The translations under genes and the position numbers were made by a program. 64,000 bases of DNA from Bryobacterales bacterium (GTDB lineage: Bacteria; Acidobacteriota; Terriglobia; Bryobacterales; Bryobacteraceae): positions 1 through 64,000 of the forward strand of contig JAFAQY010000069.1 of NCBI GenBank assembly GCA_019261985.1. Reading direction: 5' to 3'. Under the pieces are notes generated by a model, which ran no database searches, was not told the DNA's origin, and worked only from the letters and a program-made list of their open reading frames with translations. Numbering within the stretch: position 1 is the stretch's first letter; each line of letters starts with the position of its first letter. Positions 3,899 to 59,869 of the stretch are shown one piece after another.

Positions 3899-4126
3899 CT
3901 ACCCGCGCTCTTCCAGGTGCTTTAAACGGGCGTCGATGACCTCTTCGACGCGGCGAAGCTCGGCGCGCCATAGGTCGCGCATGTCGTCGAAACGATTTTC
4001 GATCGCGTCTAAGCGCGAGTTCACGGCGTCGAACTTGGAATTGGCGAGTGCAATGAGGATTCCGACGATGGTGGCGTTAAACAGCATGGGAATTCCGATG
4101 GCGAGATAGAGCTGTTCGTTGGTCAC
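3899..4126 (-). CDS. Small membrane-anchored coiled-coil protein, copy 1
   Basis: Unrecognised protein of about 75 residues with one transmembrane helix (LYLAIGIPMLFNATIVGILI) followed by a charged heptad region (NSKFDAVNSRLDAIENRFDDM) and a basic/acidic C-terminal helix ending in KHLEERG. A GTG start at 4126 is preferred. The frame shared with the downstream paralogue is kept only from this point on, while the DNA upstream differs by indels that change the frame, although a longer open frame extends to 4237. It converges on glgA and is one of two tandem copies about 352 bp apart. The single TM plus coiled coil suggests a membrane-tethered oligomer; function unknown. Confidence 0.6.
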   Translation of the reverse strand: MTNEQLYLAIGIPMLFNATIVGILIALANSKFDAVNSRLDAIENRFDDMRDLWRAELRRVEEVIDARLKHLEERG

Positions 4127-4250
4127 CAAATATAGTGCGCTCCGCTGGTCACAATCTTGCACAGAGTGATGCCGCAATTGCGGATGAAGGCGAATTCCGC
4201 GATTTTGCTGAACGGCGCAGTTCAGTCGTCCGCGCAAGCGGCGCGGATTG

Positions 4251-4562
4251 CTAGCCGCGCTCTTCCAAGTGCTTTAAACGGGCGTCAATGACCTCTTCGA
4301 CGCGGCGAAGCTCGGCGCGCCATAGGTCGCGCATGTCGTCGAAGCGATTTTCGATCGCGTCCAATCGCGAGTTCACGGCGTCGAATTTGGCGTTTACAGA
4401 GTCAAACTTGGTGTTCACTCCATCAAACTTGGTGTTCACTCCATCGAACTTGGCGTTGACAGCCTCGAATTTGGAGTTTACGAACGCTATCAGGACCCCG
4501 AGGATGGTGGCATTAAAGAGCATCGGAATACCGATGGCGAGATAGAGCTGTTCGTTGGTCAC
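4251..4562 (-). CDS. Small membrane-anchored coiled-coil protein, copy 2 (expanded heptads)
   Basis: This is a paralogue of the preceding gene with the same TM segment and the same C-terminal 40 residues, but with four extra seven-residue units of the type KFDGVNT between them. The expansion is encoded by 21-bp tandem repeats at 4381-4485. The GTG at 4562 is chosen as start for the same reason as in copy 1; an in-frame ATG at 4637 lacks an evident ribosome binding site, but cannot be excluded. The heptad unit places F and V at regular positions, as expected for a lengthened coiled-coil stalk. Function unknown. Confidence 0.6.
   Translation of the reverse strand: MTNEQLYLAIGIPMLFNATILGVLIAFVNSKFEAVNAKFDGVNTKFDGVNTKFDSVNAKFDAVNSRLDAIENRFDDMRDLWRAELRRVEEVIDARLKHLEERG
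4381..4485. repeat. Five 21-bp tandem repeats encoding heptads
   Basis: Five consecutive 21-bp units start with TC(A/G)AA; units 2 and 3 (4402-4422 and 4423-4443) are identical. Read on the minus strand, each encodes one seven-residue step of the coiled coil. The paralogous gene has only one such unit, near 4029. Confidence 0.9.
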
Positions 4563-4782
4563 CAAAGATAGTGCGCTCCGCTGGTCACAATTCTCGCACA
4601 AGGTGAATGCCGCAATTGCGGATGAAGGGGAATTCATACACCGGCGTTCCGCGGTCCGGCAGATGCGGTAATATCAGTTCTACCCGCGTTCACCGCCCCA
4701 CGGCTGGGGTGGAGGTGAAACTCTGTCATTTCCCGCGCGTCCTTAATGACGCGTTGTTCTGGAAGTGCAAGGAGGGCGGGTA

Positions 4783-5589
4783 GTGGCACAGCCACAGCAG
4801 AATCCGGGCGAACCCAAACTCAGCGGTCAAACCATCATCGGCGAGCTACTCCGGAATATGGAACTCGGCCGGTTTGAGCTGGCTTATTCCGTCCTGCTGC
4901 CCTGCGTTTTCCGGGTGTACCTCAACCCGGAAGATCATGCGCGTCTGGCCGGCGTTGTCGATCTAATCGTCGAAGACGCGGCACGGGCGCTTCGCAGCCG
5001 CGTGGCCGAATTGAACCGCCACGCAGGCAACGGCATGTTGCGCCGCGCTCCCAAAAATAAAAAAGAGTTCAAAATTGCGTGCCGCGATTGGATTATCGAT
5101 TTACTTCCCGATCCCGAAGTCCCGGCGGGCAATGTCGAAATTCACTCCGAACTGAACGAAATCCCGCAGCCGGGCTATCGGGGAGTTAAGACAACGCTCA
5201 CCGGCCGCGATCCCACCGTCACTTCGCAACGCGTTACGGCGCCCTCCGATACCCGTCGCGCCGGTGAACGCGTCTACGCGGAGATCCACTACGAAGACGA
5301 TTCCGGACCGCAGACCTTGTTGGTTACTCAGAATGAGGTCCGCGTGGGGCGTGGCGGGGACAATCAGCCGATGGATCTGGCGCTGTACGCGAGCGACGAG
5401 GTCTCGCGCGAGCACTTATTGCTTCGGCGCGATCCCGCGACGGGCGTCTTCGTGATCATCGACCAGAGCACGAATGGCACCTGGGTGGATGGCCGGCGGC
5501 TGAAGCGCGGCGTGGAAGAAGTTCTGCCCGATCAGGCTCAGATTAAGGTCGCCGAAGTGGTCAGCTTGGTATTTGAGGTTCGCAAATGA
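4783..5589 (+). CDS. FHA-domain phosphothreonine-binding protein (FhaA-like)
   Basis: This cytoplasmic adaptor of 268 residues is predicted to bind phosphothreonine peptides made by the kinase encoded downstream. The C-terminal FHA domain (about 180-268) has the canonical residues: GR at 189-190, SREH at 208-211 and STNGTW at 229-234. The N-terminal 130 residues resemble the DUF3662-type region of actinobacterial FhaA, a tentative match. The GTG at 4783 is chosen because a perfect AAGGAGG lies seven bases before it; an earlier in-frame GTG at 4765 would put that site inside the gene. It is first in the operon, and its stop overlaps the start of a 30-residue peptide gene (ATGA). Confidence 0.85.
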   Translation: MAQPQQNPGEPKLSGQTIIGELLRNMELGRFELAYSVLLPCVFRVYLNPEDHARLAGVVDLIVEDAARALRSRVAELNRHAGNGMLRRAPKNKKEFKIACRDWIIDLLPDPEVPAGNVEIHSELNEIPQPGYRGVKTTLTGRDPTVTSQRVTAPSDTRRAGERVYAEIHYEDDSGPQTLLVTQNEVRVGRGGDNQPMDLALYASDEVSREHLLLRRDPATGVFVIIDQSTNGTWVDGRRLKRGVEEVLPDQAQIKVAEVVSLVFEVRK

Positions 5590-5678
5590 CTCTGCTGTAC
5601 AGCGCGCATGTTCCTTTTGTGGCCGTGTTTCTTGTGTTTGTCGCTGCCTTGGCGGGTGTGCATTGGAGGCGGCGATGA
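5586..5678 (+). CDS. 30-residue single-pass membrane micro-peptide, coupled at both ends
   Basis: This small reading frame begins with the ATG of an ATGA overlap with the FHA gene and ends in an ATGA overlap with the PP2C gene, so it exactly fills the gap between them. GAGG lies seven bases before its ATG. The peptide starts MTLLYSAHVPF, continues with a hydrophobic helix (VAVFLVFVAALAGV) and ends HWRRR, a classical single-span membrane peptide with a positive cytoplasmic tail. The double coupling makes chance unlikely, but a pure translational-coupling leader for the phosphatase remains possible. No family is recognised. Confidence 0.65.
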   Translation: MTLLYSAHVPFVAVFLVFVAALAGVHWRRR

Positions 5679-7222
5679 CTGGCGCGGTCACATGGACGGC
5701 CGGCATTGCAACTCACCCTGGGCTGCTGCGCTCCAACAATGAAGATCGCGTCTTTGTGGACGAGACGGACGGAATTTTTCTTGTGGTGGATGGAATCGGC
5801 GGCCAGGCGGCGGGCGAGACCGCCGCGGAAACGGCAGTGCGCGTCATCGCGGAACAGCTTGCGCATTCGAACGGCAGCGCCGAAGAACGAGTGCGCGGGT
5901 CCATTACCGCGGCCAACAACGAAATCTTCGACCTGGCGCAAGCTCAACAAGACTGGCGGGGCATGGCATGCGTCCTGACGCTGGCGGTCATCGACGACGA
6001 TCGTGTTGTGGTGGGGCACGTCGGCGATTCGCGCCTGTATGTAATGCAAGGCGGCAAGCTGCGCAAGCTGACCTCCGACCACTCGCCTGTCGGCGAGCGC
6101 GAAGACCAGGGCGAGATCAGCGAACGTGAAGCGATGGCGGACCCTCGCCGTAACCAGGTCTTTAGGGATGTGGGATCGCGTCCGCGCCAGCCCGACGAAG
6201 ACGACTTCATCGAAGTGCACAGCTTTCCGTTCCGCGCGGACGCGGCGCTGCTGCTGTGTAGCGATGGGCTGAGCGATTGCGTGCCTTCGATCGATATCAC
6301 CGCGATTATAGAAACCTACGACGGGGATGCCGAAGCAGTCAGCCAGCGTTTAACGGATGCGGCGAACGAGGCCGGGGGTAAGGACAATATCAGCGTTATT
6401 TTCGTCGCGGGCGCGGATTTCTCGGGCGCCGCGGCGGCACGGGCGCGCCGGCGTCATGCCATCACGCGCCTGCGGCAGAAACCCTGGAAAATCGCGCTGA
6501 GCCGGGCGGTTTGGCTTTTAGGCGGAATGCTGATGGGAACAGCGCTGTGGGCGTTTCTGAATCGCAGCACGCTAGATCATTCGCAAGGCGCGAGCCGCCG
6601 CATCGCGGTGGCCGCGTCCGATCCGCGAGCGATTGCTTCCGCGCTTAGCGTGGCGCAGCCTGGCGATACTCTGGACGTCGCTCCCGGCGAATATTTTGGG
6701 CCTATCGAAATGCGCGATGAGATCAACCTGATCAGCCGGACGCCAGGGGCGGCAATCATTCGACTCGACCCAGCGGCAGTGGCGGATGCCGGCATCGCCT
6801 TTGCGGCGCGAGGCATTCACCACGGCCGGATCAGCGGCTTCCGGATTGCGGGCAGCAAGGCAGTACCGCTTGCCACCGGAATTCTTGTGGACGGCGCCAA
6901 TCTCGAAATCGACGACGTTGATATTTCAGGCGCTGCGGACTGCGCCATTCGCATCGTGTCGGGTTCGTCGCCCGTAATCCACGCGAGCGATCTGCACGAT
7001 AACCCGGGCTGCGGGATTTGGATTGGAGGCGACAGCTCACCGCAGATTGCCGGAAACCGGATTGCCGGCAACGGAATCGCAAGGGACGCGCCGCGGGCGG
7101 GAATCGAACTTCATCCCCCCGCGGCGCCCACGATTGAGCGCAACATTATTACGGGCAATGGCGCGCCTAACGTTGAAGAAGATATCGGCCGCGCCAACGT
7201 CACCGGGGAGGGCAAGCCATGA
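5675..7222 (+). CDS. PP2C-type Ser/Thr phosphatase with TM helix and extracytoplasmic beta-helix
   Basis: This 515-residue protein dephosphorylates Ser/Thr-phosphoproteins and is the partner of the kinase downstream (compare PstP). PP2C metal motifs are complete: SNNEDR near 24, DGIGG from Asp39, VGHVGDSRLY, LTSDHS, CSDGL and GGKDNIS. A TM helix follows at about 277-297, then about 200 residues with the imperfect repeats of a right-handed parallel beta-helix (for example GDTLDVAPGEYFGP, SSPVIHASDLHDN, SSPQIAGNRIAGN), like NosD/DUF1565 carbohydrate-binding helices. The ATG at 5675 has GGAGG six bases upstream. PstP enzymes normally lack a folded external domain of this type. External ligand: unknown; a cell wall glycan is the inference. 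Confidence 0.88.
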   Translation: MTGAVTWTAGIATHPGLLRSNNEDRVFVDETDGIFLVVDGIGGQAAGETAAETAVRVIAEQLAHSNGSAEERVRGSITAANNEIFDLAQAQQDWRGMACVLTLAVIDDDRVVVGHVGDSRLYVMQGGKLRKLTSDHSPVGEREDQGEISEREAMADPRRNQVFRDVGSRPRQPDEDDFIEVHSFPFRADAALLLCSDGLSDCVPSIDITAIIETYDGDAEAVSQRLTDAANEAGGKDNISVIFVAGADFSGAAAARARRRHAITRLRQKPWKIALSRAVWLLGGMLMGTALWAFLNRSTLDHSQGASRRIAVAASDPRAIASALSVAQPGDTLDVAPGEYFGPIEMRDEINLISRTPGAAIIRLDPAAVADAGIAFAARGIHHGRISGFRIAGSKAVPLATGILVDGANLEIDDVDISGAADCAIRIVSGSSPVIHASDLHDNPGCGIWIGGDSSPQIAGNRIAGNGIARDAPRAGIELHPPAAPTIERNIITGNGAPNVEEDIGRANVTGEGKP

Positions 7223-9192
7223 TGGTGCGCAAGCGCTTCGACCAGTATGAAATTGTTCGCAAGCTCGGCCGCAGCATGACCGACGTGTATCTGGCTCGTG
7301 ACACCGAGACGGATCGGCGGGTGGTGCTGAAGCTGGTGGAGCAATCGGGCGATCAGTTCACGCAAATTGTCATAGAGGCGGAGCGCCGCGGGGCTGAGAT
7401 TCAGAAGCAACTCCATGACGCCGATCCTCGCATCCTCGAGGTGTACGAATTCGGCGAACGCAACGGCTGTTTCTTCGTTGCGATGGAGCATTGCGAAGGA
7501 CGGAGCATTGCTGAAATTCTCGAGGTGGAGCGCCGCTTGGATCCGCAGCGCGCCGCGCGTTATGCAGTCGAGGTTCTGTCCCAATTGGACCGGCTGCACT
7601 CTTTCGTAACCGATCTCGATGGCCGCAACCGCGCGGTTGTGCACGGAGACATCAAACCTTCGAATATTCAAATCGCAGCGGGCGATCAGGTCCGGCTGCT
7701 CGATTTCGGCATTGCGAAGGCCATCACGAATACCCATCACTTGACGCACCACAACCTGGGTAGCCCAACGTATTGCTCGCCGGAGCGCCTGGAAAAGGCG
7801 CAGGTGGAACCGCAGGCGGATCTTTGGGCTGTAGGCGTGAGCCTGTATGAGATGATCGCGGGCTCACTGCCCTATCAGGCGGCGACCACCCGCAAGCTGG
7901 AAGTGCTGATTGAATCGCGCCGACCGCCGCGAGCATTACCCGCCGACTGCCCTGGCCCGCTGCGGGCAATTATTCAAAAGTCACTCGGCGCGCGGGTGGA
8001 GCGCCGCTACGCTTCGGCCGCGGACTTCGCCGATGACCTGCGCACGTTCCTCAATGGCTGCCCGACGCGGGCCGAAAAAGAGATTCCCGCCTGGGAATCG
8101 CCCGAAACCGTACAGCAAGCCCGCCCCGCACAGCAGGGCCGCGGGTTCAGGTTTCCGTCGCTATCGAGCAACACCACAGGCGCGCTGCGCGCGTTGGCGG
8201 CAGGGGTCGTTATCGGCTTGCTGCTCGTGATTCCAATGCACTATCTGCTCGGGTTCGAGCGCTCAATGCAGCCCCTCCGCGAATCGCGCGATTATTCGCG
8301 CCTGAGCGCAGCCGATATTGCTGCGGATTGGAATGTGTATCAAAAGCTAAAACGCGACGGGGTATTTTTGGGGAGATTTTCGCCTGCTCCCGGACTGGCG
8401 CAGGCTTTCCGCCAGCGACTGATTTCCGCGGCGGATTCGGTTGTCGAGAAATACCGGAACAGCTCGGACCCGGCTCTGGCGAATTTTGAATGGTCGAAGG
8501 CGCAGCTTGCGCTCACGCATGCGGTGGAAATCGATGGGGCGGACCGGGAATCGCGCGGCAAGCTCGCCCTTTGCGAGGGGTACCTGAATCTGATCCGCAA
8601 CCCGCAACTTCCGAAGGCCGAGCAAAGTGAAACCAGTTTCCAAGTTGCCGCGGCAGACTTGCCGCGCTCGCCCGATCCTCATCTGGCGCTTGCGTACCTG
8701 TACACATATGTGTTTCACAATGCCGGCAAAGCGATGGGCGAATTTGCCGAAGCGGAGCGCCGCGGGTTTGAATCCGGCCCGCGCGAATTCGAGCAGCAGG
8801 GCGACGCGTATCTGTTTCGAGCCGAATACGAGCTTCGGCAAGCACAGCGGTTGGTTGGATCGTCGCGCGTCGAATCGAGCCGGTGGGTGCGCCAAACCAA
8901 CAACGACCTGGATCGCGCGCGAGATCTTTATGAACCCATCGCCGGCTTTTCAAACGTGAACGTCGGAATCGAACGAATTTATCGCGATCGCGGAGAGGCG
9001 GAGCAATTGGCGGAGGCTCTGGCGAAACCTCAGCGGAAACCTCCAGCGGCCGCGCGAACAAGACCGCCATCCGCGCCGCGGCGCTTGCAGTCCCCGCCCC
9101 AGCAAAAGTACACCGACCCCAAAAATCCACAGCCTCCGGCGCTCGAGTCGAAAAATCCCCCGTACGTGGAAGACCCCGCCTATGATTACTAA
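7219..9192 (+). CDS. Transmembrane Ser/Thr protein kinase, non-RD type
   Basis: This 657-residue Hanks-type kinase has its catalytic domain at about 8-275, TM helix at about 325-347 and an extracytoplasmic region of 300 residues rich in helical repeats, ending in a Pro-rich tail. The ATP lysine (Lys38), HGDIKPSN loop (His142, Asp144, Lys146, Asn149) and DFG (Asp162) are present and the segment SPERLE closes the activation loop. Two oddities: the glycine loop reads GRSMTD instead of GxGxxG, and HGD replaces HRD, so activation-loop phosphorylation may not control it. There are no PASTA repeats. Start overlaps the phosphatase stop (ATGA), end overlaps the RodA-PBP gene by 11 bases. Confidence 0.88.
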   Translation: MMVRKRFDQYEIVRKLGRSMTDVYLARDTETDRRVVLKLVEQSGDQFTQIVIEAERRGAEIQKQLHDADPRILEVYEFGERNGCFFVAMEHCEGRSIAEILEVERRLDPQRAARYAVEVLSQLDRLHSFVTDLDGRNRAVVHGDIKPSNIQIAAGDQVRLLDFGIAKAITNTHHLTHHNLGSPTYCSPERLEKAQVEPQADLWAVGVSLYEMIAGSLPYQAATTRKLEVLIESRRPPRALPADCPGPLRAIIQKSLGARVERRYASAADFADDLRTFLNGCPTRAEKEIPAWESPETVQQARPAQQGRGFRFPSLSSNTTGALRALAAGVVIGLLLVIPMHYLLGFERSMQPLRESRDYSRLSAADIAADWNVYQKLKRDGVFLGRFSPAPGLAQAFRQRLISAADSVVEKYRNSSDPALANFEWSKAQLALTHAVEIDGADRESRGKLALCEGYLNLIRNPQLPKAEQSETSFQVAAADLPRSPDPHLALAYLYTYVFHNAGKAMGEFAEAERRGFESGPREFEQQGDAYLFRAEYELRQAQRLVGSSRVESSRWVRQTNNDLDRARDLYEPIAGFSNVNVGIERIYRDRGEAEQLAEALAKPQRKPPAAARTRPPSAPRRLQSPPQQKYTDPKNPQPPALESKNPPYVEDPAYDY

Positions 9193-12100
9193 AAGCTGGG
9201 AACGCGAAATCAGCATCAAACTAGCCGGAGAAACTACTCCGGCTGAGCGCCGCATCGAGCTGCGCTGGCTGGCTGGAGCATCGGTTTTAGTAGCATGCGG
9301 GTTGGTTCTGGTGGGCGCCGCGAAAGTTCGCGATTTTGGTGAAGCTTCCGCGCGGCTCGCCGCGGGAGATTTGCTGAACCTGAATTCGTTGACAGACGCG
9401 GAACACATCCAGCCATTTTTGTTGGCAATCACGGACCGGGACAGCCGCGCTCTCGCCGCACAGGCAATTTTAGATTACGTGGAATCCCATCCGGATGTCG
9501 CCAACGATGGCGCGCTCGCGCGAATTCGGTTTGACGGCGATCGCCTTCCGCTGCCGAAAATCAAACCTCTTTTAGTAGTCCGGACACCGCGTGAATTTCT
9601 AGTTCAGTACACGCTCTGGTGCCTGATCTATGTCACTTCGTTCTGGATGGTTCACTTGCTGTGGCGATGGCGGCAATTTCGCGGCGACCCCGAGCTGCTC
9701 CCGGTGTTGCACCTGCTTACGGGAATCGGGCTGATGCTGGCCGTTAGCCTGCGTGATCCGCTCCGCGATACGCTCGAGTTCCGGAAATTCGCGTGGGGTG
9801 TCGCGCTCGGCTGCGCGCTACTGCTTCTGCCGCTGCTGCGGTTCTTCCATCATCAGAATTTCGCCAAGCTGACCTATACGCCGCTGTTTGCCGCGCTCGG
9901 ATTGTTTTTGCTACTGCTGGTTCGCGGCACCGGCCCGACCGGAAGCGACGCGAAGGTCAACCTCGGCCCGTTCCAGCCCGTGGAGCTTATAAAAGTGCTG
10001 CTGGTTCTGTTTCTCGCGGGTTATTTTTCCCGCAAATGGGAGTGGCTCCGCGAACTCAATCAGCGCAAAATCCCATGGGTGCCGGTTCCGCGCCTCGCCC
10101 ATGCGGTTCCGGTAATGACTGGAGTCGCGGGTGCGTTGGTAATGTTTTTCGTGCTGAAAGACATGGGGCCGGCGTTGGTCACGGGATTTTTGCTGCTGGT
10201 GATGTTCGCGGCGGCGCGCAACCGTAGCGGGCTTGCGCTGGCGGGCGTAATCGTACTCGTGGCGGGAGTAACGGCCGGATACCGCTACGGCAAACCCAAA
10301 ACGGTTGTCGAGCGCGTCTCAATGTGGCTTTCGCCTTGGGACAACGACGTGCGCGGAGGCGATCAGCTGGCGCATTCGCTTTGGGCCTTTTCGACCGGAG
10401 GCCTTACCGGGTCCGGCCCGGGTTGGGGCGATCCGGAAGTCATTCCGGCCGGTCATACCGATTTAGTTTTGCCTGCAATTGCTGAAGAGTGGGGCTTCGT
10501 TGGCGTTGTCACGATCGGGCTGCTGTTCGTGTTGCTGCTTCGCCGCGTGTTTCTAATCGCGCTGCGCGCGCCGGATGAATTCGCGATGTTTGTCGCGCTC
10601 GGACTGGGCGCTCTACTCGCGCTGGAAATGCTGCTGATATCGGGCGGCGTATTGGGGGCTATTCCGCTTTCGGGCGTAGTTTCGCCATTCCTGAGCGCGG
10701 GTAACACGGCCATGCTGGCGAATTTCCTGATAATCGCGTTTATCGCCGGCATTTCGAGCCGAAGTTCCGGAAAACTGCTGCATCCGCCGTTCCTGCGTCC
10801 GGTACGCGGAATTTCTATTACTCTAGCCGCGCTCACAGCCGCTTTGGCGGCTCGCGCGGGCTACATTCAAGTTCTGCACGGCCCCGAATTCATGATCCGC
10901 GACGCACGGGTGATTGAGCAGGACGGGGTGAAGCGGCCGCAGGTGAATCCGCGGCTGCATTCGCTTGCGGCCGAAATTCCGCGCGGCACGATTTCGGACC
11001 GCGGCGGCATCCCGCTGGCGACTAGCGACTGGCGGGAACTTGAAGCGCATCGCGCGGATTACGAAAAGCTCGGAGTGTCGATCGACGAAGCCTGCACGCG
11101 CATCGAATCGCGCCATTATCCTTTCGGAGCCGCGACGGCGCATTTGCTCGGCGATTTGCGCACGGGCGAAAACTTCCACGCGTCCAATGCATCGCTGATC
11201 GAGCACGATTCGAACGCGCGGCTACAAGGCTATTCCGATATTCATGACCTCGCGCCCCTGGTGCGCGCGCGCCATCAACCGTTCAATCCGGGAATGCGCG
11301 CTCTGCTGTCGAAAGATCGCAGCGTGCGGAGCACTATCGATGCCCGGCTGCAACAGCGCGTCGCGCAGCTCATGAAAAAGACTCTACAGCCGGCTCGGAA
11401 AGACGGAGCGCTGGTTGTGCTTGAGCCAGAAACGGGCGATGTGCTCGCGCTTGCGAGTTATCCCAGCCCGGGATCCGCCGGACTTTCCACTCCGGAAGAA
11501 CTGCTGGATCGCGCGCGTTATGGGCAGTATCCACCCGGATCAACGTTTAAATTGGTGACCGCAATCGCGGCTTTACGCATCGACCCAAAGCTCGCGGATC
11601 GTAAGTATGAGTGCCGCCGTCTTCCGGATGGGCGCGCGGGGGCGGTGGTGGACGGATGGCGCAGGCCGATTCGCGACGATATCGGCGACCATCCGCACGG
11701 CGCGTTGAGCATGAAGCAAGCGCTGACGGTCTCCTGCAACGCTTACTTCGCGCAGCTTGGAACGTACGATGTCGGCGCGCGTTCGCTGCACGATACCGCC
11801 GCGCTTTTTGAGATCCCGGCCGGCGATGTTTCGGAGATCGCGAAAATGATGCCGTTTTCCTCGTACGGCCAAGGCCCCGTGCTGGTGACGCCGTTCAAGA
11901 TGGCTCGCGTGGCGGCCACTATCGCCGCCGGGGGCAAAATGCCGCAAGGGCGCTGGACGATGGACGAATCGAATTCGCGCGCCCAGCCGGCGCAAGAGAT
12001 GATTCCCCCGGAGCACGCCGCTTTTCTCACGTCCGCTATGCGATCGGTGGTGACGGACGGCACAGCGCGGCGGGCGATGAAGGGACTCGACATTGCAGTC

Positions 12101-12298
12101 GCCGGAAAAACCGGCACGGCGCAGGTTGGCGAAGGCGCTCCGCATTCGTGGTTCGCCGGGTTCGCTCCGGTAAGCGGCGAACATCGGATTGCATTTGCCG
12201 TTGTGGTTGAGCACGGCGGCTATGGGTCGCAATTCGCGGCGCCGCTGGCCCGGCAGGTGATTGAAGCCGCCCGCGATTTGGGGATCATTCAACAGTGA
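9182..12298 (+). CDS. RodA-PBP fusion: SEDS glycosyltransferase joined to class B transpeptidase
   Basis: This is a single 1038-residue peptidoglycan synthase. An N-terminal TM (about 28-48) and a 90-residue extracytoplasmic insert precede a SEDS/RodA domain (about 130-535) with LGPFQPVELIK and HTDLVLPAIAEEWGF, in which Asp427 corresponds to the conserved SEDS aspartate. A class B penicillin-binding domain follows, with RGTIS at 601, SxxK at Ser787-Lys790, SCN at 851-853 and KTGT at 976-979, so both active sites look intact. Elsewhere RodA and PBP2/PbpA are separate interacting proteins. Lying in the kinase/FHA operon, it is a probable phospho-regulated elongation synthase. The stop is one base before the ATG of the second FHA gene. 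Confidence 0.92.
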   Translation: MITKSWEREISIKLAGETTPAERRIELRWLAGASVLVACGLVLVGAAKVRDFGEASARLAAGDLLNLNSLTDAEHIQPFLLAITDRDSRALAAQAILDYVESHPDVANDGALARIRFDGDRLPLPKIKPLLVVRTPREFLVQYTLWCLIYVTSFWMVHLLWRWRQFRGDPELLPVLHLLTGIGLMLAVSLRDPLRDTLEFRKFAWGVALGCALLLLPLLRFFHHQNFAKLTYTPLFAALGLFLLLLVRGTGPTGSDAKVNLGPFQPVELIKVLLVLFLAGYFSRKWEWLRELNQRKIPWVPVPRLAHAVPVMTGVAGALVMFFVLKDMGPALVTGFLLLVMFAAARNRSGLALAGVIVLVAGVTAGYRYGKPKTVVERVSMWLSPWDNDVRGGDQLAHSLWAFSTGGLTGSGPGWGDPEVIPAGHTDLVLPAIAEEWGFVGVVTIGLLFVLLLRRVFLIALRAPDEFAMFVALGLGALLALEMLLISGGVLGAIPLSGVVSPFLSAGNTAMLANFLIIAFIAGISSRSSGKLLHPPFLRPVRGISITLAALTAALAARAGYIQVLHGPEFMIRDARVIEQDGVKRPQVNPRLHSLAAEIPRGTISDRGGIPLATSDWRELEAHRADYEKLGVSIDEACTRIESRHYPFGAATAHLLGDLRTGENFHASNASLIEHDSNARLQGYSDIHDLAPLVRARHQPFNPGMRALLSKDRSVRSTIDARLQQRVAQLMKKTLQPARKDGALVVLEPETGDVLALASYPSPGSAGLSTPEELLDRARYGQYPPGSTFKLVTAIAALRIDPKLADRKYECRRLPDGRAGAVVDGWRRPIRDDIGDHPHGALSMKQALTVSCNAYFAQLGTYDVGARSLHDTAALFEIPAGDVSEIAKMMPFSSYGQGPVLVTPFKMARVAATIAAGGKMPQGRWTMDESNSRAQPAQEMIPPEHAAFLTSAMRSVVTDGTARRAMKGLDIAVAGKTGTAQVGEGAPHSWFAGFAPVSGEHRIAFAVVVEHGGYGSQFAAPLARQVIEAARDLGIIQQ

Positions 12299-12299
12299 C

Positions 12300-13088
12300 A
12301 TGGCACTCTTAGATTCGATCGAAAAACTCGGCAGAGCGATTTTTGAATCGTCCTTCACCTCCGGGACCGAAGCACCCGAACTGGCGGAAATCAGGCTCGC
12401 GGTTTTGGATGCCGCAAAAGCTCGCAGCCATCGCGCCGGATCCGTGCGGGTACTTAGCGACAATGTGATTCGAGTGCGACTGCGCGGCATCCCCGATGAA
12501 CAGGCGAATGCGTTTGAGAGCGGAGTGCTTGCCGATTATCTGGCGAGCGCACTTCGCGATGGGTTGTCGCGATCCAGCTTCCGTTTTCCGGAAAATCTGC
12601 GGGTAGAGGTGGCCGCGACGTCACTGCTCCCGAGTCCAGGTCAGGCGTGGGTTGGAGTGGAAACGGCATTGGAAGTAACCGCGCCCGCGCCGGAACAACC
12701 CAAATCACAGCGCACAGGCCGTTTAGTTGTGTTGCAAGGCACCGCGAATAAACCGGAGCTTGCTTTAACCAAAGCTCGGACGAACGTAGGCCGAACGGTG
12801 GATGTATATCAGGCCGACGGCCCGGTGCGGCGGAATGACCTCGCGTTCACGGAAGACAATGAAATCAATCGCACGGTTTCACGCGAGCACGCGCACATTC
12901 TGGGTGAGCGAAAATCCGGGGAATACCGGATCTTCAACGACCGTTGGTACAAAGGCGCGAACTGCGGCCTTTGGATTCTACGCGATGGGCTTAGCCAGCC
13001 CGTGCATCGGGGCGACCGCGGCCTGGTGCTTCGATCCGGCGACGAAATTCATGCCGGCAGGGCAATTATTAAATTTTTGTCGCGCTGA
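12300..13088 (+). CDS. Second FHA-domain protein of the operon
   Basis: This cytoplasmic protein of 262 residues has an N-terminal alpha/beta region (ELAEIRLAVLDAAKARSH...) resembling the FhaA N-terminal domain and a C-terminal FHA domain at about 150-262. The FHA domain keeps GR in NVGRTVDVY and SREHAH from Ser194, but carries a longer, less typical strand 4-6 region (EINRTVSREHAH, DRWYKGANCG). The ATG at 12300 is one base after the synthase stop; an in-frame ATG at 12261 would lie inside that gene. As last gene of the unit it may dock the fused synthase or the kinase through phosphothreonines. Confidence 0.8.
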   Translation: MALLDSIEKLGRAIFESSFTSGTEAPELAEIRLAVLDAAKARSHRAGSVRVLSDNVIRVRLRGIPDEQANAFESGVLADYLASALRDGLSRSSFRFPENLRVEVAATSLLPSPGQAWVGVETALEVTAPAPEQPKSQRTGRLVVLQGTANKPELALTKARTNVGRTVDVYQADGPVRRNDLAFTEDNEINRTVSREHAHILGERKSGEYRIFNDRWYKGANCGLWILRDGLSQPVHRGDRGLVLRSGDEIHAGRAIIKFLSR

Positions 13089-13176: not shown

Positions 13177-13587
13177 ATGTTCTCGAAAGTATTAAAAGGA
13201 TTACCTGCTCTGGCTCTAGGCACGGCTTTGGCGTTGACACCCGGGACAGCTCTGGCCCAAGGACAGCATGAGCGTGGCGGCGGGCATGCCGCGGGGGGCG
13301 GGCAAGCGTACCATGGCGGACAGGCGTACCATGGCGGACAAGCGTACCATGGCGGACAGGCGTACCATGGCGGACAGGCATACCGTGGCGGCGTACGGGG
13401 GGATTTCGATCAACACCGTGGCGGCCGCTATTTTTATGGCGGACCCGGTTTGTCGTTCGGACTCTTTAGCGACCCCTATTTTTACGGCTATGGTCCGGGC
13501 TACTATTACGGCCCAAGCGCCTGCGGCTACTACGATAGTTTTGGCAATTGGATCGCGACGCCTGGATGCTATCCGTATGGGTACTAA
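13177..13587 (+). CDS. Secreted Gly/Tyr/His-rich protein with GQAYHG repeats
   Basis: This 136-residue protein has a Sec signal peptide (hydrophobic core LPALALGTALALTPG, cut expected after TALA). The mature part holds five GQAYHG hexapeptide units encoded by 18-bp tandem repeats, then a Gly/Tyr-rich segment (YFYGGPGLSFG, YGYGPGYYYGP) and two cysteines near the C-terminus (ACGYY and PGCYP). GGAGG lies about eight bases before the ATG. Low complexity and a His/Tyr-rich repeat suggest an extracytoplasmic structural or metal-binding role, but nothing identifies a family. It stands alone after the phospho-signalling operon. Confidence 0.75.
   Translation: MFSKVLKGLPALALGTALALTPGTALAQGQHERGGGHAAGGGQAYHGGQAYHGGQAYHGGQAYHGGQAYRGGVRGDFDQHRGGRYFYGGPGLSFGLFSDPYFYGYGPGYYYGPSACGYYDSFGNWIATPGCYPYGY
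13300..13389 (+). repeat. Five 18-bp in-frame tandem repeats (GQAYHG)
   Basis: Units begin at 13300, 13318, 13336, 13354 and 13372. They differ only at third codon positions, apart from the last, where CAT becomes CGT (His to Arg). Copy number is likely to vary between strains. Confidence 0.93.
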
Positions 13588-13602: not shown

Positions 13603-13652
13603 AGGCGGGCTAAAGCCCGCCGCAGGCTAAAGCCCGGCTAAAGCCTGCCCCA
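13603..13652. repeat. REP-like palindromes, family B
   Basis: Palindromes of the form GCGGGCTAAAGCCCGC and GGCTAAAGCC follow one another and end in CCCCAC (complement GTGGGG). This is the same family as the elements near 22965, 32536 and 53060. The rest of the gap up to 13860 shows no convincing gene; a minus-strand frame there has no ribosome binding site or family features. Confidence 0.85.
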
Positions 13653-50597: not shown

Positions 50598-52685
50598 ATG
50601 CCGGAAACGCAATCCACCCGCCGGCTGCGATGGCTCCTGAGACTGCTGCTGGTCTGGGTAGCGGCCATTTTCGCGCGTCTGGTTTGGCTCCAGGTTATTC
50701 AGCACGACACGCTTCTGGCGCAAGCGCAGCAACAGCAGCAAAAAACGGTCGAGATCCCCGCCATGCGCGGGTCGATATTCGATCGCCTGGGGCAGCCGCT
50801 GGCGAAAACGCTGCCCGCGGAATCCATTTGCGTTAATCCTCAGCACATCCCCGATCCCGCGGTCGCGGCGGATCTGCTGGCGCCCACGCTGAACCTGGAC
50901 CGCGACACGCTTTACGAGCGCATCGCTTCGGCCAAGCGGCGGCGCAGCGGTTTCCTGTGGGTGAAGCGCAAGGTGGATGAAGAAACGGCCAGCCGCGTAC
51001 GCGACATGAAGCTCGATTACGTCGAATTCCGCGAAGAGATGCGCCGTTTTTATCCGCACGGTTCGCTCGCATCGCATGTGATCGGCTCCATCGGGAAGGT
51101 GGATGAGGAAGACGCCGAGCGCGGAAACGCCGGTATCGAAATGGAGTTCGACGAAGAGCTATCCGGGCGCCCCGGATTGGCGCGTGTTTACACTGACGTT
51201 AAACAAAACGCCTACGACTCTTCGGTTGCGCGTACGCCGGAGCCCGGCGAGGACCTGGTCCTCACGATCGATCCGAACTTGCAATACGAAGCGGAAAAAG
51301 AACTGGATAAGAGAATCGTCACGAGCCACGCGAAAACCGGATCGATCGTCGCAATCGATCCATATACGGGCGAAATCCTCGCGATGGCTAACTTTCCGCG
51401 GTTCGATTCCAACCTGCCGCCCCAACCGGATGAGCCGCCGAACGCGCGCAGCAACTTCGCCATCACTACGCCGTACGAGCCAGGCAGCGTTTTCAAAACC
51501 GTCACGCTCTCGGCGGCGCTGGAGACCACGAATCTTCGGCCGGAATCGATCATTAACTGCGGCAACGGCAGCATTAACTTGTTCGGCCGCATCATCCACG
51601 ACCACAATAGCTACGCCGCGCTGAGCATGGCCGACGTGCTGGCAAAATCGAGCAACATCGGCGCGATTAATATCGGCCTCAAGGTCGGCGACCGCAAGCT
51701 GTACGACTACGTCCGGCGTTTCGGCTTCGGACAGAAGACCGGAATCGACCTGCCCGGCGAATCTTCAGGCATGCTCCGGCGGGTGGAGCAGTGGACGCCC
51801 AGCTCTATTGGCTCGGTCGCGATGGGGCATGAAGTAAGCGCCACGGCGCTTCAACTGGCGATCGCCGGAGCGACCATAGCCAACGGCGGCATGCGCGTGA
51901 GGCCGCAGATCCTGCTGGCCCGCCGCAAACCGGGTGAGCCCGAAGAGCGGATCGCTTCCGAAAAACCGGAGCGCGTCATCATGCCCGAGACGGCGATCGC
52001 GATGCGGCAAATGATGGAAGGCGTGGTCCTCCATGGCACGGGAAAGGGTCTCGCGAACCTGCGCGGGTACACCTCGGGCGGAAAGACCGGCTCGGCGCAG
52101 ATCTACGATTTGAAAGCGCACGTTTACACGCACTCATACAATGCGAGCTTCCTTGGGTTTGCGCCGGTGGCAAACCCGAAGATCGTCATCGCGGTTACGC
52201 TGAATGGGACTACGGGCGGGAGCGCGGGTTATGGAGGGCCTGTCGCGGCGCCCGTTTTCCGGGAAGTCGCGATGACCGCGCTGCGAATACTCGATGTTCC
52301 GAAGGATCTTCCCGAAACGACCTCGCGTACGGCGACGAAGCCCTCGAAGGAAAACGATTTGTCCATTGCCGGGGTCGATGGTCCTCCACAAATTTTTGAG
52401 GCGGCCACCGATACCCAGTCCGCATCCTCCGTCACTCCGCCGCCGGTCCACGCCGATCCGGGGGTTAACCCTATAATCGACGCGGACCGGCGGCCTTTTT
52501 TATCGGCCGCAGGGCCAAAGGTGCCGGACTTTCGGGGCTTGTCGTTGCGGGCGGTGCTGGAGCAATCCTCCGCCGCGGGGCTGCGGGTGCAGGTGGAGGG
52601 AAGTGGATTAGCGAAGAATCAGGATCCGCCGCCGGGAGCGCCGATACCGGCGCACGCTGGGGTTAGGATCCAGTTTGGGAATTAG
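50598..52685 (+). CDS. ftsI: Division transpeptidase FtsI (PBP3) with C-terminal PASTA domain
   Basis: This 695-residue class B PBP crosslinks septal peptidoglycan. It has a TM helix at about 11-30, the dimerisation region with MRGSIFDRLGQPLAKT, and the transpeptidase with SxxK at Ser297-Lys300, SSN at 351-353 and KTG at 496-498. After a low-complexity linker comes a single PASTA domain at about 640-695 (VPDFRGLSLRAVLEQSSAAG). The codons for its last 35 residues are part of a tandem DNA repeat that goes on past the stop. Confidence 0.95.
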   Translation: MPETQSTRRLRWLLRLLLVWVAAIFARLVWLQVIQHDTLLAQAQQQQQKTVEIPAMRGSIFDRLGQPLAKTLPAESICVNPQHIPDPAVAADLLAPTLNLDRDTLYERIASAKRRRSGFLWVKRKVDEETASRVRDMKLDYVEFREEMRRFYPHGSLASHVIGSIGKVDEEDAERGNAGIEMEFDEELSGRPGLARVYTDVKQNAYDSSVARTPEPGEDLVLTIDPNLQYEAEKELDKRIVTSHAKTGSIVAIDPYTGEILAMANFPRFDSNLPPQPDEPPNARSNFAITTPYEPGSVFKTVTLSAALETTNLRPESIINCGNGSINLFGRIIHDHNSYAALSMADVLAKSSNIGAINIGLKVGDRKLYDYVRRFGFGQKTGIDLPGESSGMLRRVEQWTPSSIGSVAMGHEVSATALQLAIAGATIANGGMRVRPQILLARRKPGEPEERIASEKPERVIMPETAIAMRQMMEGVVLHGTGKGLANLRGYTSGGKTGSAQIYDLKAHVYTHSYNASFLGFAPVANPKIVIAVTLNGTTGGSAGYGGPVAAPVFREVAMTALRILDVPKDLPETTSRTATKPSKENDLSIAGVDGPPQIFEAATDTQSASSVTPPPVHADPGVNPIIDADRRPFLSAAGPKVPDFRGLSLRAVLEQSSAAGLRVQVEGSGLAKNQDPPPGAPIPAHAGVRIQFGN

Positions 52686-58729: not shown

Positions 58730-59869
58730 TTGAAGCTCAAAACTGACTGGATCCTGTTCCTCGCCATCCTCACGATGACCAGCTTCGGGATCGTGATGGT
58801 TTATAGCGCCTCCAGCGCCGCGGCCGAGCCATTCTATAAAGTGCCGCCGTACTTTTTCGTGCTGCATCAGCTTGCGTTCGCGGTGATTTCCTTCGCCGTG
58901 ATGATGTACTTTAAGCGGCTGAACTATCGCAATCTCAATACGCCCGCATGGGCGTTCACTTCGCTCGGCCTTGTGCTCGCGCTGCTTGTGGCGGTCTATT
59001 TCGCCGATTCGCGCGCGCACCGCTGGTTCCGAATTCCCGGCGTAGGCTCGCTCCAGCCTTCCGAGTTCGCCAAGCCCGCGCTGGTCCTCTTTATCGCGCA
59101 TTTCCTTTCGCGCCGCGCCCAGACGATCAACCAGCGGAAAACTTTGCAGCAAGCTTGCCTGGCGGTGGCAGTGTTGGCTGCGCTGGTGGTGGTTGCAGAC
59201 TTGGGCACAGCCATGGTCCCGGTGCTGACGGTCGTCATCGTGTTTTGGATTGCCGGTCTCGAGTGGAAGTACATGCTTCGCGTGGGCCTGGCAGGTTTGC
59301 TGCTGTGCATACTCGCGGTATTTTCGCGTGGATATCGTCTCGGCCGCGTCATTGCTTATCTCGATCCCGACTACTCCAAGATCGAGCTCATCGACACCCA
59401 CCAACGGATCCGAAATTACATCCAGCGTTCCACCACCGTGCGCGACGCGGGCTATCAGCCGCGCCAATCGAAGATCGCCGTCGGCACCGGCGGAGTTCTC
59501 GGGGTCGGCCTTACGCAGAGTAAGCAAAAGCTCATGTTCCTCCCCGAAGCGCATACCGATTTCATTTACGCCACCATCGGCGAAGAGCTCGGATTATGGG
59601 GAGCTAGCGCGGTACTGGCCGGTTTCGTCGTGTTGCTCTGGCGCGGGCTGCGGCTATTTCTGCTCGCGCGGGACGACTTCGGCAAATACTTGGCTCTTGG
59701 CGTCACCGTAAGCATTGTTCTTCAGGCGCTGCTGAACATAACGGTTGTGCTTGACATGGCGCCCACGAAGGGATTTCCATTGCCGATGATCAGCTTTGGA
59801 GGCAGCTCACTGGTTAGCACGATGGCATCGCTCGGCATGCTGCTGAGTGTCAGCGAGCATGAGGGATGA
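58730..59869 (+). CDS. ftsW: Septal SEDS glycosyltransferase FtsW
   Basis: This 379-residue protein with about ten TM helices polymerises lipid II at the septum with FtsI. Motifs: VMVYSASSAAA, WFRIPGVGSLQPSEFAKPALVLF, GGVLGVGLTQSKQKLMFLPEAHTDFIYATIGEELG with the conserved Asp, and PLPMISFGGSSLVSTM. TTG 58730 is chosen since GGAG lies eight bases before; an in-frame TTG at 58706 sits within the REP element and would add eight residues. Confidence 0.94.
   Translation: MKLKTDWILFLAILTMTSFGIVMVYSASSAAAEPFYKVPPYFFVLHQLAFAVISFAVMMYFKRLNYRNLNTPAWAFTSLGLVLALLVAVYFADSRAHRWFRIPGVGSLQPSEFAKPALVLFIAHFLSRRAQTINQRKTLQQACLAVAVLAALVVVADLGTAMVPVLTVVIVFWIAGLEWKYMLRVGLAGLLLCILAVFSRGYRLGRVIAYLDPDYSKIELIDTHQRIRNYIQRSTTVRDAGYQPRQSKIAVGTGGVLGVGLTQSKQKLMFLPEAHTDFIYATIGEELGLWGASAVLAGFVVLLWRGLRLFLLARDDFGKYLALGVTVSIVLQALLNITVVLDMAPTKGFPLPMISFGGSSLVSTMASLGMLLSVSEHEG

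Follow-up and report, generated by a model that had tools for sequence, protein, structure and literature searches.

A conserved six-gene cassette in Acidobacteriota with a fused SEDS-transpeptidase gene, an apparent relative of the actinobacterial fhaA-pstP-rodA-pbpA-pknB cluster

We analysed a 64,000-nucleotide stretch of a soil bacterium of the Bryobacterales (Acidobacteriota; assembly GCA_019261985.1, contig JAFAQY010000069.1; hereafter the window), in which six plus-strand genes at 4783-13088, all located where an initial annotation had placed them, encode an FHA protein (FHA1), a microprotein, a PP2C phosphatase, a Ser/Thr kinase, a fusion of a SEDS polymerase with a class B penicillin-binding protein (PBP) transpeptidase, and a second FHA protein (FHA2). 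Our preferred reading, which the sequence makes moderately probable, is that they form a self-contained cassette for a phospho-regulated third SEDS-class B PBP peptidoglycan synthase, related to the actinobacterial fhaA-pstP-rodA-pbpA-pknB cluster. Domain searches back the gene identities that had been read from motifs (FHA, PP2C, kinase and SEDS-PBP), the FHA domain of FHA2 being recognized through its relatives.

The fusion is a single 1038-residue frame matching both FTSW_RODA_SPOVE and Transpeptidase (Pfam), in agreement with the earlier description of rodA and pbpA as one gene. Its HTD, SxxK, SCN and KTG motifs are invariant in 12 of 12 and 27 of 27 fusions (T426-D427, S787/K790, S851-C-N853 and K976-T-G in the window protein), and HTD aligns with that of the solved RodA. 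We take these residues to have the catalytic roles of SEDS and class B PBP motifs; with both sets intact, the protein is a predicted peptidoglycan synthase of the broad SEDS-class B PBP class. In a structure model (pLDDT 86, pTM 0.75), an extra N-terminal transmembrane (TM) pair encloses a small helical outside domain, for which no Pfam match was found at E up to 10 in two members. The seven best Foldseek matches of the model were all M. tuberculosis PbpA chains; by sequence, PbpA ranked second, behind 6pl5 chain B (PBP2/FtsI). The start at 9182 fits the relatives, whose N-termini read M-x-[VI]-T-[RK]-S, as does MITKS here. A passage of PMC10449877, citing the Rhodococcus RHA1 genome, states that single-frame SEDS-PBP fusions exist, and a passage of PMC6207328 describes an engineered RodA-PBP2 fusion as active in E. 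coli; the fusion as such is therefore not new.

Canonical synthase genes lie elsewhere in the same genome: RodA, PBP2 and FtsI, each grouping with its E. coli counterpart, and a further SEDS gene of canonical type, taken for FtsW. An FtsI-like and a canonical FtsW-like gene are found on the same contig about 40-50 kb downstream (approximately 51042-52280, and 58754-59863, plus strand). Among 13 fusion-bearing genomes (11 with the window's type and two with a second type described below), 11 also carry two full canonical SEDS genes. In trees built with the window and 22 picked fused loci of its type, a branch with support of 100/99.7 splits canonical RodA and FtsW from every SEDS protein of an FHA-containing cluster, namely the fused proteins, actinobacterial RodA, one from Bacillota and the unfused acidobacterial ones; the canonical sample consists of Acidobacteriota and E. 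coli, and the FHA-cluster branches are long. Approximately unbiased (AU) tests, from which a plasmid-borne Spirosoma relative and nine canonical rows were excluded, rejected placement of the fusion SEDS as a canonical RodA (p 0.000109) or a canonical FtsW (p 0.000616). Neither a grouping with actinobacterial RodA (p 0.377) nor one with the unfused acidobacterial proteins (p 0.286) was rejected, and the former received support of 66/87 in a larger tree. E. coli FtsW fell at the base of the canonical group, outside the acidobacterial group taken for FtsW (weak support). The locus suggests that Acidobacteriota have, besides RodA and FtsW, a third SEDS lineage.

A profile of 12 fusions gave 194 confirmed relatives in one-per-species genomes, of which we analysed the best 80. 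Three locus labels are duplicates, L038, L069 and L078 denoting the loci also numbered L027, L028 and L029. By record title, all except one of the 80 (79/80) come from Acidobacteriota, mostly Bryobacterales and their relatives; one is a cultured soil strain, Occallatibacter savannae AB23 (L089), which has the complete operon. FHA1, PP2C, kinase, fusion and FHA2 share a strand and keep this order in 54 of the 80 (hits of 40 bits or less excluded); the remaining 26 are colinear without one or more genes, many because of contig ends, and none contradicts the order. The comparison across Acidobacteriota that the initial annotation had proposed thus came out in favour of a conserved arrangement. 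Beyond the 80, one locus (L037) is rearranged, and its kinase, which is not orthologous, was left out of the kinase profiles. Across 81 loci we found no shared flanks and no conserved partner genes outside the six; the most shared flanking family, represented by a response regulator, occurs in nine of them at varied places. Within the phylum the distribution is patchy: at E 1e-70, 10 of 396 genomes match, including the window's own, and the cassette is present in 2 of 23 genomes of its genus. A locus labelled Opitutaceae bacterium palsa_1470 (L070), from a Verrucomicrobiota-like metagenome-assembled genome, encodes a fusion 57% identical to the window's and split into two frames; this is perhaps a misbinned acidobacterial contig.

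The flanking FHA proteins both resemble FhaA. FHA1 matches Pfam FHA (3.8e-12), and its FhaA_N score of 21.2 bits lies below the cut-off of 25; FhaA_N was matched in nine of ten FHA1 relatives (E up to 0.01). The window's own FHA2 gave no Pfam match, and an FHA domain was matched in 9 of 11 members of its family. FHA2 has no hydrophobic segment, unlike FhaB, which combines an N-terminal TM with FHA. A profile of its N-terminal half, searched against the open frames of 20 loci with FhaA_N genes and of three actinobacterial loci, matched FhaA of Nonomuraea (27.8 bits) and Actinomyces oris (14.7 bits) and not that of Tsukamurella. By these matches, FHA1 appears to be FhaA-type and FHA2 is probably so as well. 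A recent duplication was rejected, as the whole profiles align over the FHA domain only and the N-terminal halves at 0.2% probability.

Counterparts of the microprotein, TM peptides of 27-38 residues (one of 51), occur in 39 of 60 loci holding FHA1 and PP2C, and L054 and L059, in which we found no PP2C, have the peptide as well. ATGA overlaps are frequent among them, the window's gene overlapping both neighbours in this way, and many share the motif M-x-x-L-Y-x-x-H-[IT]-P-F-V-x-x-F-L-x-F. Over 14 disjoint pairs, the ratio of nonsynonymous to synonymous change (pN/pS) was 0.49 in frame, while the shifted frames gave 0.95 and 1.45. Purifying selection acts on the microprotein, and its conservation together with this frame comparison rules out a chance open frame. 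A conserved gene of this size is short enough to slip under usual gene-length limits. In actinobacteria its slot is occupied by FhaB, which starts with a hydrophobic stretch.

The kinase lacks PASTA repeats, as had been noted from the sequence: none matched at E up to 0.1. Against the PASTA kinase equivalog NF033483 (Stk1/PknB) it scored 178.5 bits, short of the cut-off of 450 and over the kinase part only. Hydropathy gives one TM, and the model (pLDDT 83) shows a helical outside part; TPR_19 was matched in the outside domain of 14 of 25 family members, the window's own not among them. Among the top 50 listed, Foldseek matched the kinase model to kinase domains, which gave no fold-based identity for the outside domain. 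The outside part of the phosphatase is a right-handed beta helix (Pfam Beta_helix), matched in 7 of 12 members. Its preceding TM is weak by hydropathy in the window (1.52) and above 1.8 in 10 of 11 aligned relatives.

Two threonines stand out as candidate phosphothreonine switches, Thr4 of the synthase and Thr297 of the kinase. In 63 of 80 synthases T[RK]S falls among the first 12 residues, where chance would give about 0.7 such proteins (no more than about 1.3, since two start choices were allowed); the wider pattern with Thr4 fits 64 of 80, and no residue of positions 8-24 exceeds 52%. Thr297, in a linker modelled with low confidence (293-318), is present in 74 of 76 kinases, and within ten positions no residue exceeds 66%. 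Because related sequences share ancestry, this conservation is a sign of constraint and not proof. According to passages of PMC12077195, FhaA is bound by the PknB linker of M. tuberculosis in its phosphorylated form, and the paper infers a lack of conservation of linker sites among bacterial kinases, which makes the conservation of Thr297 notable.

A mechanism consistent with these parts can be proposed. The outside domain of the kinase, and the beta helix of the phosphatase where present, would read the state of the envelope; the kinase would phosphorylate its own linker at Thr297 and the cytosolic N-terminus of the synthase at Thr4; and both phosphothreonines would be docking sites for FHA1 and FHA2, which would recruit the synthase or gate it. 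The microprotein, in the slot of FhaB, may act as a membrane adaptor, and PP2C would reset the system. As the fusion sets polymerase and crosslinker at 1:1, we propose that one switch could control both.

Among 72,556 plasmid records searched at the protein level, a single one covers more than 80% of the fusion; it is a 137-kb plasmid from Spirosoma oryzicola (Bacteroidota), predicted to be non-mobilizable. A nucleotide search of the plasmids found no second copy. The plasmid row (L191, NZ_CP089545.1, 2652-13208) reads FHA, a 27-residue TM peptide, PP2C, two kinases, fusion and FHA. Its fusion is 29% identical to the window's, with an insert in the N-terminal outside region, and the great length of its branches (1.41 and 4.39) makes its position within the fused clade uncertain. 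That the plasmid-borne fusion of a Bacteroidota species is accompanied by kinase, phosphatase and FHA genes counts in favour of the cassette reading. Together, the patchiness, the contexts and the Spirosoma record suggest transfer between lineages. A bolder version of the proposal, which we put forward tentatively and at less than even odds, is a portable "synthase-plus-switch" cassette: a third, fused SEDS-class B PBP lineage that would travel between lineages and even phyla together with a kinase, a phosphatase, two phosphothreonine readers and a conserved single-TM microprotein of its own. The cassette's FHA proteins would read a phosphothreonine at the very N-terminus of the synthase, and control by this route would not depend on the RodA and FtsW machinery of the host.

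Passages of PMC11898655 describe the actinobacterial fhaA-fhaB-pstP-rodA-pbpA-pknA-pknB operon, with which the locus shares several features: an FhaA-type protein, a membrane PP2C with an outside domain, a transmembrane kinase, tight junctions, and a SEDS followed by a PbpA-like class B PBP (the order in E. coli mrdA-mrdB is PBP, then SEDS). It differs in having one kinase, without a PASTA match and before the synthase, where the actinobacterial cluster has two, one of them with PASTA; in carrying one fused gene in place of separate rodA and pbpA, in the same order; and in the FhaB slot, which holds a TM-only microprotein, while the second FHA protein ends the operon. With canonical RodA-PBP2 and FtsW-FtsI it shares the two enzyme families and their intact motifs, but its SEDS is rejected from both groups and it bears the additional N-terminal TM pair and outside domain. 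The Rhodococcus RHA1 fusion cited in PMC10449877 likewise has polymerase and transpeptidase in one chain.

Related clusters also exist within the phylum. FhaA_N genes occur in 47 of 396 genomes. In seven of 20 stretches around such genes PBP and SEDS are separate genes, and several of the seven also contain PP2C and kinase genes; unfused PBP and SEDS genes lie beside FHA, PP2C or kinase genes in L142, L144, L146, L152 and L154. As in the window, the same functions adjoin and the SEDS falls outside the canonical RodA and FtsW group; unlike the window, these clusters have a separate PBP gene before the SEDS gene, and a kinase after the phosphatase. In two of the 20 stretches (L141 and L145, Acidobacteriota), a PP2C gene is immediately followed by a second, diverged type of SEDS-transpeptidase fusion; the transpeptidases of the two types show no clear grouping.

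Several observations weigh against our preferred reading. The 80 loci are related, so their conservation partly reflects descent. The microprotein was not found in 21 of the 60 loci with FHA1 and PP2C; PP2C was not found in L052, L054 and L059 despite room for it; and 21 of 63 PP2C relatives (hits of 300 bits or less excluded) are too short for the beta helix, so these parts are dispensable in some lineages. The last count also limits the initial annotation's view of the phosphatase as the carrier of an external sensor-like domain: the domain is there in the window, yet many relatives are too short for it, and the kinase has an outside domain as well. The N-terminal Thr4 motif is missing in the Spirosoma synthase and in some Acidobacteriota. 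Finally, PBP precedes SEDS in all seven unfused acidobacterial clusters holding both, opposite to the fusion, and these clusters are therefore relatives and not obvious ancestors.

The enzyme could instead be a backup synthase for stress or antibiotic tolerance, switched on when the canonical synthases are blocked or the wall is damaged and, unlike the synthase of our preferred reading, silent in normal growth. Its accessory, patchy occurrence would suit such a role, with two copies in ten assemblies among the 80 loci and one plasmid-borne case, as would the outside domains of both kinase and phosphatase. However, we found no resistance or stress gene that recurs beside the cassette, the transpeptidase motifs are ordinary, and we consider this role unlikely.

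Still less probable is the reading implied by the term "elongation synthase" in the initial annotation, in which the fusion is the lineage's ordinary RodA-PBP2 enzyme under kinase control. The PBP half does score best against pbp2_mrdA in 12 of 12 members, and actinobacterial RodA, a growth enzyme, may be the nearest SEDS given the grouping that was not rejected. By hidden Markov model score, however, the SEDS half is ambiguous, the window protein scoring higher with the FtsW model than with the RodA model, and 386 of 396 genomes of the phylum have no match at E 1e-70. With the canonical RodA clade rejected by the AU test, and RodA, a second canonical SEDS, PBP2 and FtsI encoded elsewhere in the genome, the term is doubtful.

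The suggestion that the locus represents an independent way of linking wall state to phosphorylation did not hold up well either. Separate gathering of the genes in Acidobacteriota would account for the kinase before the synthase, the second FHA gene in last place, the lack of PASTA, the reversed PBP/SEDS order of the unfused clusters, and the failure of the fused SEDS (66/87) and of the transpeptidases to join the actinobacterial proteins firmly, but it is set against FhaA-type FHA1 and probably FHA2, a PBP half whose fusion model matches PbpA best, the actinobacterial SEDS-then-PBP order, the shared exclusion from canonical SEDS and the existence of unfused acidobacterial clusters, and we judge it unlikely. 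An independent origin of the cassette is thus probably not the case; we favour a variant of one old cluster, for which the trees allow more than one sister group.

The genes are tightly packed (Table 1). As the initial annotation had it, most junctions are ATGA-type overlaps or one-base gaps: FHA1/microprotein, microprotein/PP2C and PP2C/kinase overlap by 4 nt, and one base separates synthase and FHA2. The kinase/synthase overlap is 11 nt, so this junction is not ATGA-type, a small correction. A scan for promoters and terminators found sites no more numerous than in shuffled sequence.

Table 1. Coordinates of the six genes and of the conserved synthase N-terminus in the window
Feature	Position	Strand	Description	Basis
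FHA1	4783..5589	+	FhaA-type; FhaA_N-like N-terminal domain and FHA domain	Pfam
Microprotein	5586..5678	+	30 residues, single TM	Conserved in relatives; pN/pS
PP2C phosphatase	5675..7222	+	Weak TM at about 273-291, C-terminal right-handed beta helix	Pfam PP2C and Beta_helix; hydropathy
Ser/Thr kinase	7219..9192	+	Variable linker with conserved Thr297, TM 326-344, helical (TPR-like) outside domain	Pfam Pkinase 9e-37; model
SEDS polymerase-class B PBP transpeptidase fusion	9182..12298	+	Extra N-terminal TM pair and small outside domain	Pfam; model
Synthase N-terminus codons, M-x-[VI]-T-[RK]-S (MITKSW in window)	9182..9199	+	Cytosolic, conserved; candidate phosphosite Thr4	
FHA2	12300..13088	+	N-terminal domain similar to actinobacterial FhaA, and FHA domain	FHA matches of relatives; N-half profile

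Repeats are found on both sides of the operon. At 3899-4237 and 4251-4637, both on the minus strand, lie tandem copies of a small gene encoding one TM and a charged, coiled-coil-like tail; they share 95% and 86% identity across 140 and 137 nt, and the second has an expanded 21-bp, seven-residue repeat (FDxVNxK). Directly 3' of the operon (13178-13587, plus strand), a Gly/His/Tyr-rich small protein, probably secreted, is encoded with 18-bp tandem repeats, followed at 13603-13652 by short repeats of a GGCTAAAGCCCG-type palindrome.

Our searches of open-licence PMC papers turned up no account of the six-gene cassette or its spread, nor of the separate SEDS lineage, this microprotein or either threonine motif. 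Control of this kind is best known from actinobacteria, and the cassette packages it in an unusual way. It bears on the question of how Ser/Thr kinases and FHA proteins control adjoining SEDS-class B PBP synthases; a passage of PMC11898655 calls the published roles of mycobacterial FhaA hard to reconcile. With six genes, polymerase and crosslinker in one chain and two conserved candidate phosphosites, the cassette makes this question testable with purified parts.

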